DNA of 64,000 bases from a bacterium (lineage in GTDB: Bacteria > Bacteroidota > Ignavibacteria > Kapaibacteriales > UBA7675): positions 124,001 through 188,000 of the forward strand of contig JAUIKM010000001.1 of assembly GCA_030430495.1 (NCBI GenBank), in the 5' to 3' direction. The notes beneath the pieces were generated by a model. That model ran no database searches and was not told the DNA's origin. It saw only the letters and a list, made by a program, of their open reading frames with translations. A program made the translations under genes and the position numbers. Below, in pieces: positions 5,342 through 20,111 of this stretch (the first letter of the stretch is position 1; each line of letters opens with the position of its first letter).

Positions 5342-6862
5342 ATGGATCCGAGCGGACGGCTTTTTGAGCTTATCGGCGCGATGTCAAAACAGGAAAAGCG
5401 CTACTTCAAACTGTACTCATCTTTCTACGCCAAAAAGAGCGGCAAAAAATGTGAGCAATTGTTCGACATTTACAATCGCTACGATTCCGCGGACGATCCG
5501 AAGCTGCAGAAAAGCCTGGACAAACAGTTCTCGAGCAGCAGTCTTTCGCGTCTGCGCAATGAGTTAACAAGTCTTGTGCTGGACAGTCTCGTCTCGTTCC
5601 GCGCGCAACACATGATGGACACGGAGGCGCGTTCGGCGCTCCAGCAGGTGGAGGTGCTGTTGGAAAAGGGGCTGCACCTGCACGCGGCCCGGCTGCTGGA
5701 AAAGGCCAAGAAAAAGGCGGCCGAAGTGGAAAACCACGCGCTGCAGATGCAGACGCTGTTCTGGGAGCGATCGCTGCTGCTGAGTCGCTACGACAAAAAC
5801 ATCGAACAGCAGTTGACCGATTTTTACGCGGAGGCGGAGACGGTGATGGCGCAGCAGAAAACGCACTACGCCTACTCGCATCTGCAGGACTTTGCGCTGC
5901 TGGCCTGGGGCAGCTACAAACGCCAGGCGGACGAGGACACCGCGGCGCAGCTGCAGTCGCTGCCGCAGCACACGCTGATCGCCGACGAGAGCAACGCCAC
6001 GACGGTAAAATCGCAGGTTGCCAGGCTGCACATCCTGGGCATCGTGGCACAGAGCCGCAATCGGATGGAGGAAGCCTCGCGCCTGTACGAGGAGATCATC
6101 GCGCTTATGGAGGCGCATCCGGCTCTGCTGCGCAAAAACGGCAACCAATATGTGCGTTTCATGTGGCAGCACCTGGGAATTCTGGTTGAGCTGCGCAACG
6201 ATGCAGACGCGGCGCGCGTGGCGAAACGGATCAAGGAGTTTGACGAAGTGCCGGAGCACCTGCGCGTCGTCTTCAGCCTGGCGGCGCTGGGGCAGGAGCT
6301 GAATCTCTTTCTCAATCTGCGCAAGACGGAACAGGCCGCCCGCGCCGTCGGCGAGATAGAAGAGATCATGGAGAACAAACAGCACTCCATCCACCCGCAG
6401 TCCTATCTGAACCTGTGCCACAACTGCATGGCCTTTTATTTTCTGGTGGGCGACAACGCCGCCGCGCTGGAATACGTGAACAGGATTCTGGCCGAAAACA
6501 GGGTGGTGGTGCGCAAGGACATTCAGGACTGCGCGCGGGCCTACAACCTGGTGCTGCACTACGAGCTGGGCCACACCGAGACGCTGGAGCATCTGTTCCG
6601 CTCGACCTACCGCTACCTGAAACAGCACGACAAACTCGACTCGATCGAGAAGGTGATACTCAACTGGGTCCGCAAGCTGCTGAACGCCGTGAGCCGCGGT
6701 GAGCGCGCCGAAATTTTCGGCGGGCTCTTTGCCGAACTGCATACCATGCGCAGTTCACAATCACAGCACGTCCTCGGTCTGGACGAGCTGTTTTTCTGGG
6801 CGCAGAGCAAAGTGGACAACCGTTCGATTGAAGAAGTCTGGGTCCAGAGTCCGGTAGAATAA
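5342..6862 (+). CDS. Large all-alpha helical-repeat protein, paralogue of the gene at 51299-52828
   Basis: The predicted product is 506 aa, without signal peptide or TM segments, and almost entirely helical (Leu, Gln, Glu, Ala and Arg-rich with TPR-like spacing). The N-terminus MDPSGRLFELIGAMSKQEKR matches the paralogue's MSTGDILFQLVSSMRRDEKR in position, and both continue with F-K/S...LF...L.......LR.EL/LLKVLR. The two therefore form a family. The helical part carries repeated motifs of the type ARLHILGIVAQSRNRMEEASRLYEEI, consistent with a solenoid used for protein contacts. No DNA-binding or catalytic motif is visible. The conserved N-terminal ~90 residues could be a separate domain. The start is an ATG without a good ribosome site. 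The gene is monocistronic and followed by two hairpins (6887-6925, 6960-6991). Function unknown; a regulatory scaffold is a guess. Confidence 0.65.
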   Translation: MDPSGRLFELIGAMSKQEKRYFKLYSSFYAKKSGKKCEQLFDIYNRYDSADDPKLQKSLDKQFSSSSLSRLRNELTSLVLDSLVSFRAQHMMDTEARSALQQVEVLLEKGLHLHAARLLEKAKKKAAEVENHALQMQTLFWERSLLLSRYDKNIEQQLTDFYAEAETVMAQQKTHYAYSHLQDFALLAWGSYKRQADEDTAAQLQSLPQHTLIADESNATTVKSQVARLHILGIVAQSRNRMEEASRLYEEIIALMEAHPALLRKNGNQYVRFMWQHLGILVELRNDADAARVAKRIKEFDEVPEHLRVVFSLAALGQELNLFLNLRKTEQAARAVGEIEEIMENKQHSIHPQSYLNLCHNCMAFYFLVGDNAAALEYVNRILAENRVVVRKDIQDCARAYNLVLHYELGHTETLEHLFRSTYRYLKQHDKLDSIEKVILNWVRKLLNAVSRGERAEIFGGLFAELHTMRSSQSQHVLGLDELFFWAQSKVDNRSIEEVWVQSPVE

Positions 6863-7783: not shown

Positions 7784-8160
7784 CCGTTCAGCAGGCAAAA
7801 AGGCGCGTTCACCTATGATCTGTGGTGCGTTCAGTTTTAAACGCGTGCATGAAGCGTGAGAATGTGTTAAGCTTGTGGATGACGAAGCGCAGCATGCGGC
7901 GCGGAGAATGGCGGTTGATTCACTCGGAAAAAACTTGCATACGGTGCAGGGTGGGAGGAGTGTGTTGAACGCTGAAAACGTCGTCTCGAGGAGGAGGCGG
8001 GGTGGGCCCCTGATCTAGCGAAGAGTACGGCCAAAAAGTAACGCCCCACCGCCGCGACACCCGCAATCCCTTGCAAATCAACACCTTACGGGGTTGTCTG
8101 CGCCGATTGCCCGGCAGCTCCGCGAATCAAAACGCGCATCTTTTTTACCGAAGAATCTAA
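7784..8160. repeat. Dispersed element, copy 1 (matches 16217-16593)
   Basis: This segment is co-linear with 16217-16593 at a constant offset of 8433 bp: CCGTTCAGC, TTAAGCTTG, GCGCAGCATGCGGCGCGGA, ATTCACTC, CTTGC, CCTGATCTAGCG, TTAC and ATCTTTTTT all align without net insertion or deletion over ~300 bp. Positions 7945-8020 (76 bp) are identical to 16378-16453, while both sides are clearly diverged. The right end of each copy carries what looks like the 3' end of a VOC gene on the minus strand. No transposase, terminal inverted repeats or target duplications were seen. It may be a duplicated gene tail with a conserved downstream element, or a non-autonomous element. Confidence 0.7.
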
Positions 8161-8249: not shown

Positions 8250-8693
8250 TCAACCACCCGGCCACTCCGTCGACTGCGGCCGCTCATCCGGAACGATCCA
8301 CAGCTCCAGTGTCATGCCCGTCGGATCGTTGATCGTCAGTCCCCAATAGCTGTCCTGACGCCACTCCGGCCGCTCGTTAAACCGCGCAATGTCCGTCCCG
8401 CGCAAACGCTCCGTCAGTGCGGCAAAATCTTCCTGTGCAATCTTGACCGAAAAGGAGGGACGCAGGCCCGTGCCGCCTTCCCAACCCGGTTGCCAGGCGT
8501 AATCCGCATGCGCCGGCACAGTCTCGTCCACCTTGATAAACATCACTATCAGTCCGGCTGTTTTAACATTGACATATTGCCCCGCCGCGTACTGGTATTC
8601 TTCCATGCCGAGCAGGTCGACATAAAACGATCGCATGGCTTCGACATCGTTGCAGGGGACAAAAAAGTGGGCCAGTTCGGCGGCGTGTTTCAT
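8250..8693 (-). CDS. VOC family protein (glyoxalase/bleomycin-resistance/dioxygenase fold)
   Basis: The predicted product is 147 aa, the normal size for one VOC chain of two beta-alpha-beta-beta-beta units. The start at ATG 8693 (MKHAAELAHFFVPCNDVEAM) has AGG/GGAG-like bases upstream on the minus strand. The first unit shows HFFVPCNDVEAMRSFYVDLL and GQYVNVKTAGL. The second shows FSVKIAQEDFAALTERL and ends with the typical INDPTGMTLELW strand. Candidate metal ligands are the His near residue 8 and the C-terminal Glu of LELW. VOC proteins bind a divalent metal and act on diverse small molecules, so the substrate cannot be read from sequence. The gene is intact, whereas three other VOC fragments lie nearby (3806, 8078, 16519). 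It is divergent from the DUF1579 gene at 8896. Confidence 0.8.
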   Translation of the reverse strand: MKHAAELAHFFVPCNDVEAMRSFYVDLLGMEEYQYAAGQYVNVKTAGLIVMFIKVDETVPAHADYAWQPGWEGGTGLRPSFSVKIAQEDFAALTERLRGTDIARFNERPEWRQDSYWGLTINDPTGMTLELWIVPDERPQSTEWPGG

Positions 8694-8895
8694 CCTGGTA
8701 GTCTCCGCATTTGTTCTTGGAATTATTACACTCGCTGCGTTAAGATAGGAATGTGCGCCCGACAATCCGCCCGAAGGGTTCACAAAAGTGCCGGAAATGT
8801 GTAACTTGAGTCCGGTGATGACGGAATCCGCCCGAACCATACCCTCCGTTATCTCCAACCACATTTTTCCGAATACAACACTTCCGGAGACTTTG

Positions 8896-9354
8896 ATGTC
8901 CAATCTTTCCGCTCTTCTGGCATGCGCGGGCAACTGGCGCGGCTCAAACAAAGTTATGGACCCCACGGAACAAATCAACGACGAATCTGCCGCCGAGGCG
9001 CAGATTGAGTCCGTATTTAACGGCAAATTCGTCGCCATTAACACTTCCTGGAGTTACAAAGGTCAGTCGGCCGAGGGCCGTATGCTCGTCGGTTTTAACC
9101 CGCACACAAACGTCGCCACGATCAACTGGGTCGACTCCTGGCACATGCAGCCGGACATGATGCACTCCAGCGGCACGATCGATCCCAACGGCGTCATCAA
9201 TGTTCTTGGCTCGTATGCCGCGCCTCCGGGACCGGACTGGGGCTGGCGTACAATTCTGACGCCGGGCCCTGATTCCTTCAGGATCGACATGGCCAACATC
9301 ACGCCCGACGGTCAGGAAGCGCCCGGAGTTGAAATGATATTTGAGCGCGCCTGA
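8896..9354 (+). CDS. DUF1579-type protein
   Basis: The predicted product is 152 aa. I chose the ATG at 8896 (MSNLSALLACAGNWRGSNKV) because GGAGA lies at 8886-8890; the longer frame from 8788 has no ribosome site and would extend into the promoter region of the divergent VOC gene. The pattern GNWRGSNKV, then SWSYKGQSAEGRMLVGFNPHTNV, then WVDSWHM and SGTIDPNGVINVLGSY is that of DUF1579 and related lipocalin-like proteins of unknown role. No signal peptide is visible, so it is probably cytoplasmic. It shares a ~200-bp upstream region with the VOC gene, and the two could be co-regulated. Confidence 0.65.
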   Translation: MSNLSALLACAGNWRGSNKVMDPTEQINDESAAEAQIESVFNGKFVAINTSWSYKGQSAEGRMLVGFNPHTNVATINWVDSWHMQPDMMHSSGTIDPNGVINVLGSYAAPPGPDWGWRTILTPGPDSFRIDMANITPDGQEAPGVEMIFERA

Positions 9355-14478: not shown

Positions 14479-15831
14479 ATGTTTTGCATGTTTTGTGTCC
14501 GGTCGGCAATCGTTGTCATTGCAGCCCGTTGCGCCGCGGCGTCGCGTTTACTTTTGGTAGTTGTTGCGTTTATAGTCGCCGCGACATCGCTCCGCGCCGG
14601 GGAAACAGACAATCCACCGAACCGCACCTGGTTCGGCAACCTCGAAAAACTGACGGCCGAAGAATACTCGCTTTTGTATGCCGCCCTGGGCGGCGCCGGG
14701 ATTTCCTATGACAACGGCGAGCTGTTTGCCGTTCAGCAAAACCCGGCGCACGTCGGCATGTCCGGCCTGGAGGGCGGTCGTGTGGACTTTGCTTATCTGT
14801 CGCCGCAAACCTGGCGCGACGACATCGAACTCCCGAAGCGTTCGGGCTACGGCGGTCGTGTGGCGTTTGACGGCGCGCTTGCCGGTGTTCATCTCGGCTT
14901 TGGACTTGTTTATACCGAACTCGACACCGACACGGAAGACCCGCTGTTTGATATTGAGTGGAACGGTATGGCGGTTCCCAATCTCACGAGCGAAAAAGTC
15001 CGCAGTCTGTCCGCAGGTTTTGCCGCGGAGTACTATCTGCGGGCCGCCGTGGGAGTCTCCGCGCGCAACGTCTCTACGTTGCAGCCCGCATTTGCGGAGC
15101 AACCGGCATTTGCTCCCGCGCGCGGCACACTCTACGACGTCGGTTTTACGGCCGTTCTGAACAGCCGCGATCTGCAGCGCCGTCTGACGGAATCTGAGTG
15201 GGAGATATTCGGCATTCGTCCCCAGCTGGAGCTGGGCGGCGGCGCGGTCTGGGCCAACCAGGGGCGCGTGATGGTGCCGGCGATGGGCCTTGCCGTGTTT
15301 GCGCCTCGCAACTTCTCAGTCGGCGCACACGCCGGCATTGTTTTCAGCGCAGACCTCGGCGCAACGGAAATCGAGTTGTTCCGCGCAGTTATCAGCGCCG
15401 CCGCACTCGAAGATCGGCGCGAATTTGACTGGTGGAGAGAGACGCTTTGTTATCGCGACGGCGGCGTCAGGCTGCAATTCTGGAACGACGTGGTAATGGG
15501 CGAGCTGCACCCGGGCATTGAGCAGCGCCGCGGCGCGATGTTGGAAGTATTTGAGACATTTACATTCGGCAGCGGTCTCGTGCGCCCGAGTCTTGCCACT
15601 GAGCGTTTCTGGACGAACAACCGTCAGCACGCCTGGGGTCTCCGCGCGGACGGGATGTTCAAGCTCGGCGCCGCTCTGTGGGACAACTCCGTGACGCGAT
15701 TCTGCGCGCGGCACATATCTGTTTCCTGGAGCACGAGCACTATCGGCGAGCTGCATTTCTTTCGCGGCGTACTGGACATCAAACGCGAGCACCACGGATT
15801 TTCGATCGGCCTGCAACACCTCACCCTGTGA
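14479..15831 (+). CDS. Outer-membrane beta-barrel protein, PorV/PorQ-like
   Basis: The predicted product is 450 aa. The ATG at 14479 (MFCMFCVRSAIVVIA) has GAGGGAG at 14467-14473; the GTG at 14446 is less likely. A signal peptide ends around TSLRAG. The mature start then contains LLYAALGGAGISYDNGELFAVQQNPAHVG, the N-terminal pattern of PorV/PorQ/FadL-like barrels in which ALGGA is followed by a NPA turn. The rest is alternating aromatic/Gly strands (YGGRVAFDG, GFGLVYTEL, ELGGGAVWANQGRV). PorV and PorQ act in release and processing of T9SS cargo, so a T9SS link is possible but not proven. The last 11 codons (HHGFSIGLQHLTL) and the stop lie inside the first unit of the 118-bp tandem array, so the gene's 3' end has been amplified. 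Confidence 0.6.
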   Translation: MFCMFCVRSAIVVIAARCAAASRLLLVVVAFIVAATSLRAGETDNPPNRTWFGNLEKLTAEEYSLLYAALGGAGISYDNGELFAVQQNPAHVGMSGLEGGRVDFAYLSPQTWRDDIELPKRSGYGGRVAFDGALAGVHLGFGLVYTELDTDTEDPLFDIEWNGMAVPNLTSEKVRSLSAGFAAEYYLRAAVGVSARNVSTLQPAFAEQPAFAPARGTLYDVGFTAVLNSRDLQRRLTESEWEIFGIRPQLELGGGAVWANQGRVMVPAMGLAVFAPRNFSVGAHAGIVFSADLGATEIELFRAVISAAALEDRREFDWWRETLCYRDGGVRLQFWNDVVMGELHPGIEQRRGAMLEVFETFTFGSGLVRPSLATERFWTNNRQHAWGLRADGMFKLGAALWDNSVTRFCARHISVSWSTSTIGELHFFRGVLDIKREHHGFSIGLQHLTL

Positions 15832-16254
15832 CAAACAAGAAATTCATGGGGGAGTTCGGCATCCGTTCAGCGGTGAAAACGGCACGCTGAACCACGTAGA
15901 GCGCGTGCACCGCGGACTTTCGATCGGCCTGCAACACCTCACGCCGTGGCAAACAAGAAATTCATGGGGGAGTTCGGCATCCGTTCAGCGGTGAAAACGG
16001 CACGCTGAACCACGTAGAGCGCGTGCACCGCGGACTTTCGATCGGCCAGAAACACCTCACCCTGTGACAAACAAGAAATTCATGGGGGAATTCGGCATCC
16101 GTTCAGCGGTGAAAACGGCACGTTGAACCACGTAGAGCACGAGCACCGCGGATTTTCGATCGGCCTGCAACACCTCACCCTGTGGCAAACAAGAAATTCA
16201 TGGGGGAATTCGGCATCCGTTCAGCGGTGAAAACGGCACGTTGAACCACGTAGA
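15784..16254. repeat. Four-copy 118-bp tandem repeat covering the end of the 14479 gene
   Basis: The string TTCGATCGGCC recurs at 15801, 15919, 16037 and 16155, an exact period of 118 bp. TG(A/G)CAAACAAGAAATTCATGG recurs at 15829, 15947, 16065 and 16183. Each unit holds the terminal codons of the gene, its stop region, and a hairpin GTTCAGCGGTG...CACG(C/T)TGAAC. The stop TGA is intact in units 1 and 3 but TGG in units 2 and 4. Since 118 is not a multiple of 3, later units cannot extend the same frame. The last unit runs directly into dispersed-element copy 2. Confidence 0.9.
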
Positions 16255-16593
16255 ATGCACCGTTCAGTTTTTTCGACATAGAAGTGCGCTGTGTGTTTGT
16301 TAAGCTTGCTGTTGACGACGCGCAGCATGCGGCGCGGATCATGGCGAGAAGATTCACTCAAAAAAACTTGCGAATATTGCAGGGTGGGAGGAGTGTGTTG
16401 AACGCTGAAAACGTCGTCTCGAGGAGGAGGCGGGGTGGGCCCCTGATCTAGCGAGGAGTACACCCTCGCAGGAACGGCATCTTCCATTCAACGCCGCAAG
16501 CCCTTTAACATCAACAACTTACCGCATGGGCGCGATCGCCCGGCTCACGCAAACCCTCACTCCATCCGGATCTTTTTTCCAAAACACCTCAAA
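16217..16593. repeat. Dispersed element, copy 2 (matches 7784-8160)
   Basis: Co-linear with copy 1 at a constant 8433-bp offset; 16378-16453 is identical to 7945-8020. Its left end (CCGTTCAGCGGTGAAAACGG) is also the segment amplified in the 118-bp array, which ties the two repeat systems together. Its right end overlaps the minus-strand VOC remnant. Confidence 0.7.
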
Positions 16594-16660: not shown

Positions 16661-16925
16661 CCTCCAAGATGCTTTTCGCGACCGCATTGGCCGGTCCAAT
16701 ATTTGCGCCCGAATTCCGTTTTGGCTCTTGTTTGCGAGTACAGGTTTGTTCGGTCGGCGCCGGACAATTTTCTCCCCTCTACACCGACTTTACAGACTTT
16801 TACAGATCGAGCGCCGTGCACAGACCGGGCCTCTGCCGACTGGTGCGACTGAACCCAGGTTCGCTGCTCCGCATCATTCCGCGCCGAAAGAACTTTGAAC
16901 ACGTTGAGAAAGGGTGGTGGTGACT
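16661..16925. other. Upstream region of the E1 gene
   Basis: Non-coding as far as I can tell. It contains the near-repeat CGACTTTACAGACTTTTACAG at about 16784-16805, which may belong to the E1 promoter. No clear -35/-10 pair. Confidence 0.3.
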
Positions 16926-19334
16926 ATGCCGGCTTTAAGCATTCAGACCGACAATTTTCAGGTGTCGATCAGCAGTGAAGAGATTCTGCACGACTACCGC
17001 ATTGCCTGGCTGAGCCGCCAGACAAGTCTGCTGGGACGTCGCGAAGTGCTCACGGGCAAAGCGAAGTTTGGAATCTTTGGCGATGGCAAAGAAGTTGCCC
17101 AGTTGGCAATGGCTAAAGCTTTCCGCAAGGGCGATATCCGCTCCGGCTACTATCGCGACCAGACCTTTATGTTCTCGCTCGGCATGAGCAATGTGCGCGA
17201 ATTTTTTGCGCAGTTGTACGCCAACACCAACGTCGAGCAGGAACCCGCCTCCGCCGGCCGCCAGATGAATTCACACTTTGCCACGCGCAGTCTGCATGGC
17301 GACGGTTCGTGGAAAACCTTGACGGACATGTATAATTCCAGCGCCGACGTTTCGCCGACGGCGTCGCAGATGCCGCGCATGGTTGGCCTGGCCTATGCGT
17401 CCAAACTCTACCGCGAAATCGAAGATCTGCAGCAGTTCACGCAGTTCTCGCAGAACGGCGATGAAATCTGTTTCGGCACAATCGGCAATGCTTCCTGCGC
17501 GGAAGGCATGTTCTGGGAGTCCGTCAATGCTGTCGGCGTGCTCGGCGCTCCGCTGCTGCTTTCGATCTGGGATGACAACTACGGTATTTCCGTACCGAAC
17601 AAATACCAGATCACCAAAGAAGATTTGACCTCGCTCCTGAGCGGATTCCGCCGCGAGGACGGCAGTGAGGCCGGTTACGATTTGTATACGGTCAAGGGCT
17701 GGGACTATCCGGCGCTGGTGGACACCTACCTTCGCGCGGCCGATTCGATTCGCCGCACTCACGTACCGGCGATCATTCACGTGATCGAAGTCACGCAGCC
17801 GCAAGGTCACTCGACCTCGGGCTCCCACGAGCGCTACAAATCAAAAGAGCGCCTGGAGTGGGAACAGGAGCACGACTGTGTGACGCGTATGCGCGCCTGG
17901 ATTCTCGAACAGGGTATCGCCACCGAAGAAGAACTGGCCGAACTGGAAAAACGCGAGATCAGTCAGGTCCGCAAAATGAAGGACGAGGCCTGGAAAGAGT
18001 ACAGCGAACCCATTCGCGCCGAAGTCAATAAAACGATTGACCTGATCGAAAAGCTGGCCGCAGTCGCTCCCGATGGGGCCGCCGTCCGCGCCGCCGCCGG
18101 TGGACTGAAGGCGATCCGCGAGCCCTTCCGCCGCGATATCGACAAGGCCATGATGGAAGCCCTGCTGCCGGTGTTCAGACACCCTTCCAACGAACGCTCC
18201 GCGCTGGCGGAATGGCGCAAACAGTACAATGCCGAAAACAACGAGCGCTACGACTCGCATCTGCATTCGGCCACGGCGTTGGCGGTTCGCGAAGTGAAAC
18301 CGAAGTACCCGCAGAACGTCGATCGCCTGACAGGTGCGGAAATCATCAACCAGTTTTTTGAATCGGCATTTGCGCGCGATCCGCGCGTAATTGCCTTCGG
18401 CGAAGACGTCGGTAAACTGGGCGACGTCGACCAGGGCATGAAAGGTATGCAGGAGAAATTCGGCGAACTGCGCGTGTCGGACACGGGCATTCGCGAGTGC
18501 AGCATCATCGGTCAGGCAATCGGCATGGCGATGCGCGGTCTGCGTCCCATCGCCGAAATCCAGTATCTGGATTACCTGCTCTATGCGCTGCAAATTGTTT
18601 CCGACGATCTTGCCACGGTGCTTTATCGCACGCGCGGCGGTCAGAAAGCGCCGGTGATTATCCGCACGCGCGGTCACAGGCTCGAAGGCATCTGGCACAG
18701 CGGCTCGCCGATGGCCGGCGTGATCAACCTTGTGCGCGGCGTCTATGTCTGTGTGCCGCGCGACTACGTGCGCGCCGCCGGATTCTACAACACCCTCCTG
18801 CAGGCCGACGAGCCGGGTATCGTGGTGGAAGTGCTCAACGGTCCTCGCAAAAAAGAAGACGTTCCGACGAATATCGGCGACGTATCGGTGCCGCTGGGAC
18901 AGGTCGAAGTTATCCGCGAAGGTTCGGACGTCACGCTCGTCACGTACGGCGCCTGCTGCCACCTGGCGCTCGAAGCGGCCGACAGACTGGCGGGCATGGG
19001 CATAGAAGTTGAAGTAATCGACGTTCAGTCTCTGATCCCCTTCGACCGCAATCACGACATTCTCACGTCGGTCAAAAAGACCAACCGCGTGTTGTTCGTC
19101 GACGAAGACGTTCCGGGCGGCACAACGGCGTACATGATGCAGAAAGTCATGGAGCAGGGCGCTTTTGAGTGGCTTGATGCGGAGCCCCGCGTGCTCTCGG
19201 CCAAAGAACATCGCCCGGCCTACGGCTCGGACGGCAACCACTGGTCCAAGCCCGACAGCGATCACATGATCGAGGCGGTCTACGCCATCATGCACGAAGC
19301 CAATCCGCAGCAGTTTCCGCAATTCCTGGCCTGA
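16926..19334 (+). CDS. 2-oxoacid dehydrogenase E1, fused alpha and beta subunits
   Basis: The predicted product is 802 aa. The ATG at 16926 (MPALSIQTDNFQVSIS) follows AAGGGTGGTG; the GTG at 16914 is in frame but lies in that stretch. Residues ~20-380 form the thiamine-diphosphate-binding alpha part (YYRDQTFMFSLGMS, GTIGNASCAEGMFWE, DDNYGIS). Residues ~380-460 are a charged linker. Residues ~465-802 form the beta part (AFGEDVGKLGDVDQG, GIRECSIIGQAIGMAMRGLRP, RTRGHRLEGIWHSGSP, VDEDVPGGT). The enzyme would decarboxylate a 2-oxoacid (branched-chain or pyruvate) and pass the acyl group to a lipoyl E2; no E2 or E3 gene is in the window. Fused E1s of this size are known in Bacteroidota. The Asp usual in the GDG/GDA cofactor motif appears as Asn (GNAS). 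A terminator follows. Confidence 0.88.
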   Translation: MPALSIQTDNFQVSISSEEILHDYRIAWLSRQTSLLGRREVLTGKAKFGIFGDGKEVAQLAMAKAFRKGDIRSGYYRDQTFMFSLGMSNVREFFAQLYANTNVEQEPASAGRQMNSHFATRSLHGDGSWKTLTDMYNSSADVSPTASQMPRMVGLAYASKLYREIEDLQQFTQFSQNGDEICFGTIGNASCAEGMFWESVNAVGVLGAPLLLSIWDDNYGISVPNKYQITKEDLTSLLSGFRREDGSEAGYDLYTVKGWDYPALVDTYLRAADSIRRTHVPAIIHVIEVTQPQGHSTSGSHERYKSKERLEWEQEHDCVTRMRAWILEQGIATEEELAELEKREISQVRKMKDEAWKEYSEPIRAEVNKTIDLIEKLAAVAPDGAAVRAAAGGLKAIREPFRRDIDKAMMEALLPVFRHPSNERSALAEWRKQYNAENNERYDSHLHSATALAVREVKPKYPQNVDRLTGAEIINQFFESAFARDPRVIAFGEDVGKLGDVDQGMKGMQEKFGELRVSDTGIRECSIIGQAIGMAMRGLRPIAEIQYLDYLLYALQIVSDDLATVLYRTRGGQKAPVIIRTRGHRLEGIWHSGSPMAGVINLVRGVYVCVPRDYVRAAGFYNTLLQADEPGIVVEVLNGPRKKEDVPTNIGDVSVPLGQVEVIREGSDVTLVTYGACCHLALEAADRLAGMGIEVEVIDVQSLIPFDRNHDILTSVKKTNRVLFVDEDVPGGTTAYMMQKVMEQGAFEWLDAEPRVLSAKEHRPAYGSDGNHWSKPDSDHMIEAVYAIMHEANPQQFPQFLA

Positions 19335-19751: not shown

Positions 19752-20111
19752 TCAAACCAGAGACACCGTCACCGTGTAAGCATTGCCGCCGTCGTCGGTT
19801 TTGTCGTAGTGAAACACCGCCTGGTTGCCGTAGTTAAACGTCGGCGTGCCCACCGCCGGATCGCTGAAGTACACCTGCCCGGCTTCAAAATTGCTCTGGC
19901 ACATGAACTTGCAATCCGCTCCGACTCCTTTGGGTGCAAAAAAGACGGAGGAGTTGCCCATTGCGATCTGAACGGAACCGCCGTTGGCGATGTTGGTGTT
20001 GACCGGCGGGTTAATGGAAAACGTTGCATCGTCATTGACCTTGTCGATCGAAAGAAACTTGATGATGCTGCCGGTGTTGTTTTTGATCGTGAGAGATGCT
20101 GACATTGCCAT
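19752..20111 (-). CDS. Small beta-sandwich protein, possibly aegerolysin-like
   Basis: The predicted product is 119 aa. The ATG at 20111 (MAMSASLTIKNNTG) has CAGGAG about 7 nt upstream on the minus strand. There is no signal peptide. The composition is beta-rich. An N-terminal SLTIKNNTGSIIKFLSID is followed by a Gly/Asn-rich middle (NIANGGSVQIAMGNSSVFF) and a C-terminal YTVTVSLV strand. Two Cys occur in DCKFMC. This layout, with a hydrophobic start strand ending in NNTG and a terminal V-V-V strand, is reminiscent of aegerolysins and of other short beta-sandwich lectin-like proteins, but I see no diagnostic motif. It is monocistronic with its own terminator. Confidence 0.6.
   Translation of the reverse strand: MAMSASLTIKNNTGSIIKFLSIDKVNDDATFSINPPVNTNIANGGSVQIAMGNSSVFFAPKGVGADCKFMCQSNFEAGQVYFSDPAVGTPTFNYGNQAVFHYDKTDDGGNAYTVTVSLV

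Follow-up and report, generated by a model that had tools for sequence, protein, structure and literature searches.

Structured RNA-like intergenic elements in about 100 or more copies behind a 76-bp identical block in a Kapaibacteriales genome

Why do two stretches of bacterial DNA share one block of 76 identical bases when the sequence on either side has clearly diverged? The question arises in a 64,000-nucleotide window (C58:124001-188000 of a 5.6-Mb assembly of 80 contigs), in which an earlier note had matched positions 7784-8160 (copy 1) with 16217-16593 (copy 2) over about 300 bp without net indels. Re-alignment bears this out: the offset is constant at 8433, the block shows 0/76 mismatches, and two compensating one-base gaps lie immediately 5′ of it (net indel = 0). 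Identity is limited to the block, as had been claimed, with distances between the copies of 20/78 in the 5′ flank (7868-7944) and 31/75 in the 3′ tail. Homology is patchy past ~8032 and resumes at the tail motif ATCAACAcCTTACg (8077-8090 and 16510-16523). The 76 identical bases cannot be a product of chance.

7945..8020, + strand: 76-bp identical island, copy 1 (re-alignment, distances)
16378..16453, + strand: 76-bp identical island, copy 2 (re-alignment, distances)

Both stretches belong to a large family, not listed before, of structured RNA-like elements that lie between genes in about 100 or more copies, and the 76-bp identity needs both RNA-level constraint and homogenisation between copies. 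Constraint and local gene conversion had been put forward as alternatives; each gains support, and the evidence speaks for both at once. With moderate confidence, we read each copy as a stand-alone structured non-coding RNA gene of ~150-200 nt that bears its own promoter and has spread as a non-autonomous repeat. Whole elements extend over ~7784-8095 (copy 1) and ~16217-16523 (copy 2). The family-wide conserved stretch, ~7865-8032, exceeds the island in length, and only 40/76 island positions are conserved at ≥90% across the family; the perfect identity of this pair thus exceeds the general constraint. The description of the flanks as decayed DNA holds only in part: they are divergent, but they comprise the promoter-like region of the element and a tail with conserved motifs.

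Family size and distribution

The genome-wide search proposed in the earlier note finds many further copies, and substitutions are unevenly distributed along the alignment of the window pair, so the outcome that would have refuted the note did not arise. The 377-bp query alone locates 44 places by DNA similarity, a covariance model built from 32 copies (R1) gives 80 matches at E ≤0.1, and a sequence model of the conserved 3′ module (R2) gives ~95. Merging the R1 and R2 matches with promoter-pattern matches and with halves split by an insertion sequence (IS) yields 122 places, which correspond to about 100 or more elements because some halves belong to one element. The exact sequence CGTTCARTTTTTT occurs 48 times in the genome, equally on both strands, and 0 and 1 times in two genomes of the same taxonomic family.

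Among the genomes searched, the family is found only in this bacterium. R1 has no match in 60 relatives, none with relaxed filters in the two same-family genomes, and none in 394 other genomes of the phylum (under stricter filters, by which weak relatives could be missed). R2 has two chance-level matches only, in one same-family genome, and none in 390 other genomes of the class (again under stricter filters, with the same risk of missing weak relatives). Across 84,980 species genomes, from which the copies of the window's own genome were possibly left out, two pattern scans returned one chance-like match. The match on a Burkholderiales contig covers 27/63 module positions only and is taken as chance; a phage or plasmid origin was rejected, there being no match in phages, plasmids or viral contigs.

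Tandem copies spaced 336-340 bp apart occur at three places. Two near-identical copies lie 377 bp apart close to a contig end (L103, C23:19354-19882), with further local duplications at C34 and C70. At L091 (C70:513-1355) element copies are followed by a minisatellite-like run (CACAGTACTCAGTTATTGAA), and at L045 a near-perfect 21-bp tandem repeat (CAAAAACACCTGAACGCC) lies directly downstream of the element at C30:55902-56070.

Structured body, 3′ module and promoter-like region

Although the sequence of the body varies widely, compensatory changes preserve its stems. In an alignment of 35 copies, 93.6% of cells pair and 12/27 pairs change on both sides (5.9 in shuffles), with 42 doubly changed cells against 10.1 expected in shuffles. 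None of 500 shuffles reaches any of the covariation measures, and sliding the alignment by 1-3 columns lowers pairing to 37-62%. In an alignment-free test of the hairpin P0 and the long-range stem P1, the raw 5′ and 3′ arms of a copy pair better with each other than with swapped arms in all 1000 permutations. In P1, 6/6 pairs change on both sides (0/1000 permutations), and copy L044 carries a compensatory AAACC/GGTTT in the P2/P3 helices. The compensatory base changes that the earlier note thought worth seeking are therefore present, as expected of a structured non-coding RNA gene, and of the kinds of constraint it listed the RNA is favoured. The body and its parts are as follows.

7880..8032, + strand: predicted structured RNA body, copy 1, with a predicted start (covariation; R1 match C58:131883-132032 = window 7883-8032)
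7887..7903, + strand: 5′ hairpin P0 (GCGCAGCATGCGGCGCG), copy 1 (helix 1; 96.5% of cells paired, 4/6 pairs changed on both sides)
7910..7973, + strand: long-range stem P1, copy 1, ~7910-7913 with 7970-7973, enclosing P2 and P3 (helix 2)
7921..7962, + strand: P2, copy 1, CACTC 7921-7925 with GAGTG 7958-7962, enclosing P3 (covariation helices 3, 4)
7934-7939 with 7945-7950, + strand: P3, copy 1 (covariation helices 3, 4)
7990..8032, + strand: G-rich 3′ module, copy 1, GGnGGnGGCGGGG..GGnCCCC..GATC..GTaCGnCC, conserved
16313..16465, + strand: predicted structured RNA body and 3′ module, copy 2 (covariation; R1 match C58:140316-140465 = window 16316-16465)
8077..8090, + strand: type A tail motif ATCAACAcCTTACg, copy 1 (19-copy comparison)
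16510..16523, + strand: tail motif ATCAACAACTTACc, copy 2 (19-copy comparison)

Both window copies belong to the largest subfamily, which contains P0, P1, P2 and P3. In a second subfamily P0 is longer (CATGCCACGG..CCGTGGCATG) and shows compensatory variants, and others share only the common promoter design and the 3′ module, with different hairpins between them. Across the family the module reads GGnGGnGGCGGGG..GGnCCC..GATC or GATTCA, ends in GTnCGnCC and starts 151-195 bp past the T-run of the third upstream unit, body length being variable. It is followed by one of two tails. Type A comprises a spacer of near-constant length and variable sequence, and then the motif ATCAACAACTTACG (seen in 19 copies, 15 of them with a start offset of 60). 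Type B carries three more direct units, CCCGYTCA, at +16, +37 and +58 (seven strict cases, more by eye), and the 21-bp repeat at L045 has the period of these downstream units. The idea that the variable segment of the type A tail serves as a guide RNA was dropped, as the segment is present in part of the family only and weak conservation runs through it. Protein coding was also rejected: the GGC-rich 3′ region opens short frames, yet the lengths of the bodies, compared among copies, are spread over all frames, and from one subfamily to another the spacers that separate conserved blocks change by single bases. An excess of 33- and 30-nt spacers reflects two subfamilies; lengths of 29, 32 and 34 occur too.

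Upstream of the body, most of 75 copies carry CGTTCA units at -43, -22 and 0 (21-22 bp spacing), the third of which runs into a T-run, and conservation ends sharply upstream of the first unit, at ~-46. In 58/58 copies the starts of the third unit and of a -10-like box, TAnnCTTG, are exactly 40 bp apart, despite the variable body length. From this arrangement in the sequence, box and units may act together as a promoter, and the element is presumably transcribed.

7784..7840, + strand: three phased CGTTCA units, copy 1 (units 7785, 7806, 7828), the third followed by a T-run (CGTTCAGTTTTAA)
7868..7875, + strand: -10-like box TAAGCTTG, copy 1, 40 bp from third-unit start, with a putative promoter role
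16217..16273, + strand: three phased units, copy 2 (16218, 16239, 16261), the third being CGTTCAGTTTTTT
16301..16308, + strand: -10-like box TAAGCTTG, copy 2, at the same fixed unit-to-box spacing

A 118-bp tandem array (15784..16254, + strand; four copies, 94% matches) overlaps the 5′ end of copy 2. Each of its copies bears the first two upstream units of copy 2, and only the last continues into the third unit.

Homogenisation, insertion and genomic setting

Constraint does not account for the whole of the identity. Pairs of copies with a similar 5′-flank distance have a median block distance of 0.205, or usually about 20%, whereas that of the window pair is 0. Unlinked copies on different contigs also share exact runs, of 130 nt from position 52 (L021/L022), 127 nt from 55 (L086/L098) and 107 nt from 52 (L095/L111). 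These runs are confined to the predicted transcribed part, and in several pairs their beginning at 52-55 coincides with the predicted RNA start. The gene conversion suggested earlier is thereby strengthened: homology-limited conversion tracts explain the exact runs, as RNA-templated copying would too. No reverse transcriptase (PF00078), as would be expected for a retroelement or group II intron derivative, was found in the assembly, which is 95.6% complete, and positive controls were detected.

The elements are themselves a target. A stretch of 120 bases from the left end of an IS occurs 16 times, each time at a contig end. All 16 left ends follow the GGN of the 3′ module and 9/9 right ends precede GGYGGCGGG; the target in these other copies equals the point between 7992 and 7993 of copy 1. 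In 11/16 left ends a pattern search placed the promoter unit where it was expected; the remaining five belong to more diverged members, whose units were read by eye. This multicopy IS, which has two sequence variants, breaks the assembly at the 16 contig ends (e.g. L105, L114, L115, L116). Its left end has an inverted repeat just before a start codon that covaries between the variants (GCGATTaCCG/CGGcAATCGC; CGATTTCCG/CGGAAATCG).

The two IS ends carry near-matching subterminal repeats, GTATGTTTAAAA and GTATGTTAAAAA (11/12 match). In IS1111 elements the subterminal inverted repeats measure 11-13 bp and have short asymmetric extensions (PMC11187229); the lengths of such extensions cannot be fixed here because the target is a GGN repeat. 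IS1111 and IS110 elements with a seekRNA or bridge RNA (PMC11187229, PMC11208160) resemble the inserted IS in the exact target, the subterminal repeats and the non-coding ends. Unlike in those elements, its transposase gene is unassembled, as is its interior, and the assembly has no PF01548 (DEDD/IS110-type transposase) match; it is a candidate member only. The comparison concerns the IS, an inhabitant of the element rather than the element itself.

None of 57 copies overlaps a called gene (simple gene caller); 20 lie between convergent genes and four between divergent ones. Orientation is codirectional with the 5′ gene in 37/48, a bias largely explained by the avoidance of divergent gaps, as insertions in convergent gaps always score as codirectional. 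A replication-strand bias was sought and not found (neighbours 34 same, 23 opposite, p 0.18; flank GC skew 0.008). Copy 1 is flanked by a gene at 5342-6862 (+) and a glyoxalase-like gene at 8250-9044 (-), while a 2-oxoacid dehydrogenase E1 gene (16914-19334) has copy 2 upstream of it.

Nature of the elements

The closest known kinds appear, by features rather than sequence, to be the BOX elements of Streptococcus pneumoniae and multicopy structured RNAs. BOX elements (PMC3049150) likewise have many intergenic copies, modularity, predicted RNA structure and local module expansion, and have been proposed to be parasitic, non-autonomous and sometimes transcribed. Like BOX, the present family is modular, transcribable and structured, and it is probably parasitic. 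BOX has terminal inverted repeats resembling those of a resident IS, whereas none were found here and the outer units are direct; the family also differs in being GC-rich with promoter-like phased units. REP and BIME sequences (PMC1525189, PMC8450116) are likewise dispersed, extragenic and specifically targeted by a multicopy IS, and insertion into repeated extragenic elements was already known (PMC1525189). REPs, however, are short palindromes tied to a Y1 (RAYT) transposase; the unit here is ~300 bp and promoter-like, and no Y1/IS200-type transposase (PF01797) was found in the assembly, with positive controls detected, so the family does not form a REP/RAYT system. As regards miniature inverted-repeat transposable elements, no inverted repeat joins the ends of either window copy, and by this test the family is not of that kind. 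Tn7- or Mu-like ends were rejected, the units on both sides being direct, not inverted. HEARO, the IscB omega RNA, is a structured RNA occurring in tens of copies in one genome. The present elements are alike in being multicopy predicted structured RNAs, but no Rfam family gave a relevant match over them at E up to 5. The only Rfam match in the window lies elsewhere, a DUF805 RNA (RF03081; 20131-20200, -, 67.7 bits) just upstream of a gene for a 119-amino-acid protein (19752-20111, -).

If each copy is an RNA gene, the CGTTCA units, two helical turns apart on one face of the DNA, would bind an activator that recruits RNA polymerase, and the RNA would start ~5-7 nt after TAnnCTTG. The constant 3′ module may be bound by a common partner protein, leaving the 5′ hairpins free to vary. 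Copies would multiply both as a non-autonomous repeat and through local duplications in tandem. The 76-bp island would result from gene conversion, which homogenises copies within the transcribed core, and for the IS a single point of the 3′ module may be a safe place to land.

Several observations weigh against this reading. The element has no classical sigma-70 match and no terminator at its predicted 3′ end, and the window's other genes show no upstream enrichment of TAnnCTTG. Folding energy gives no evidence of structure, as shuffled sequence folds no less well (mean z -0.23; complement +0.11), so that covariation carries the case for structure. The covariation count was made on a structure-fitted alignment, which the alignment-free test mitigates, and relatedness among copies remains in both covariation controls. 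No mobilising protein was found (reverse transcriptase, IS200-type and IS110-type were searched). Inspection of aligned flanks by eye showed no target-site duplications, and the relatives lack the element and so offer no empty site.

The elements could instead act as DNA, as a repeated protein-binding or recombination site in which a structure-forming core has phased units to one side or both, any RNA being a by-product. Phased units also lie downstream in a subset (+16, +37, +58), duplication breakpoints fall among the units and the IS targets the core as DNA. This is unlikely: G-U pairs on one strand are numerous among the compensatory changes in the core, subfamilies have wholly different hairpins within a preserved topology, and the constant distance from unit to box is promoter-like. 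More doubtful is a species-specific regulon of trans-acting host small RNAs, amplified by duplication and serving the cell rather than being parasitic: the common promoter architecture, RNA-level constraint and divergence of bodies into subfamilies would suit it, but one genome has ~100 or more copies and its relatives have none, tandem runs recur at 336-340 bp, at least 16 copies are split by the IS and no constant unpaired seed was recognised. Harder still to credit, though worth stating, is a new class of multicopy RNA-protein system, in which one lineage would carry ~100 or more diversified RNA genes with an activator-type promoter and a protein-binding 3′ module in common, and sequence would pass from one unlinked gene to another across the transcribed interval, the RNA itself being a possible intermediate. 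Very improbable is the view that the island merely records recent gene conversion between neighbouring repeats under no functional constraint; it fits a pair identity above the family-wide constraint, but the block is conserved and covaries in tens of copies on many contigs.

A structured RNA family of ~100 members, private to one genome and sharing a promoter design, offers a natural experiment on the multiplication of selfish or regulatory RNAs in bacteria. Because covariation is already present in a single-genome alignment, structure and function are directly testable, and an IS that reads one point of the element provides a clean case of repeat-targeted transposition.
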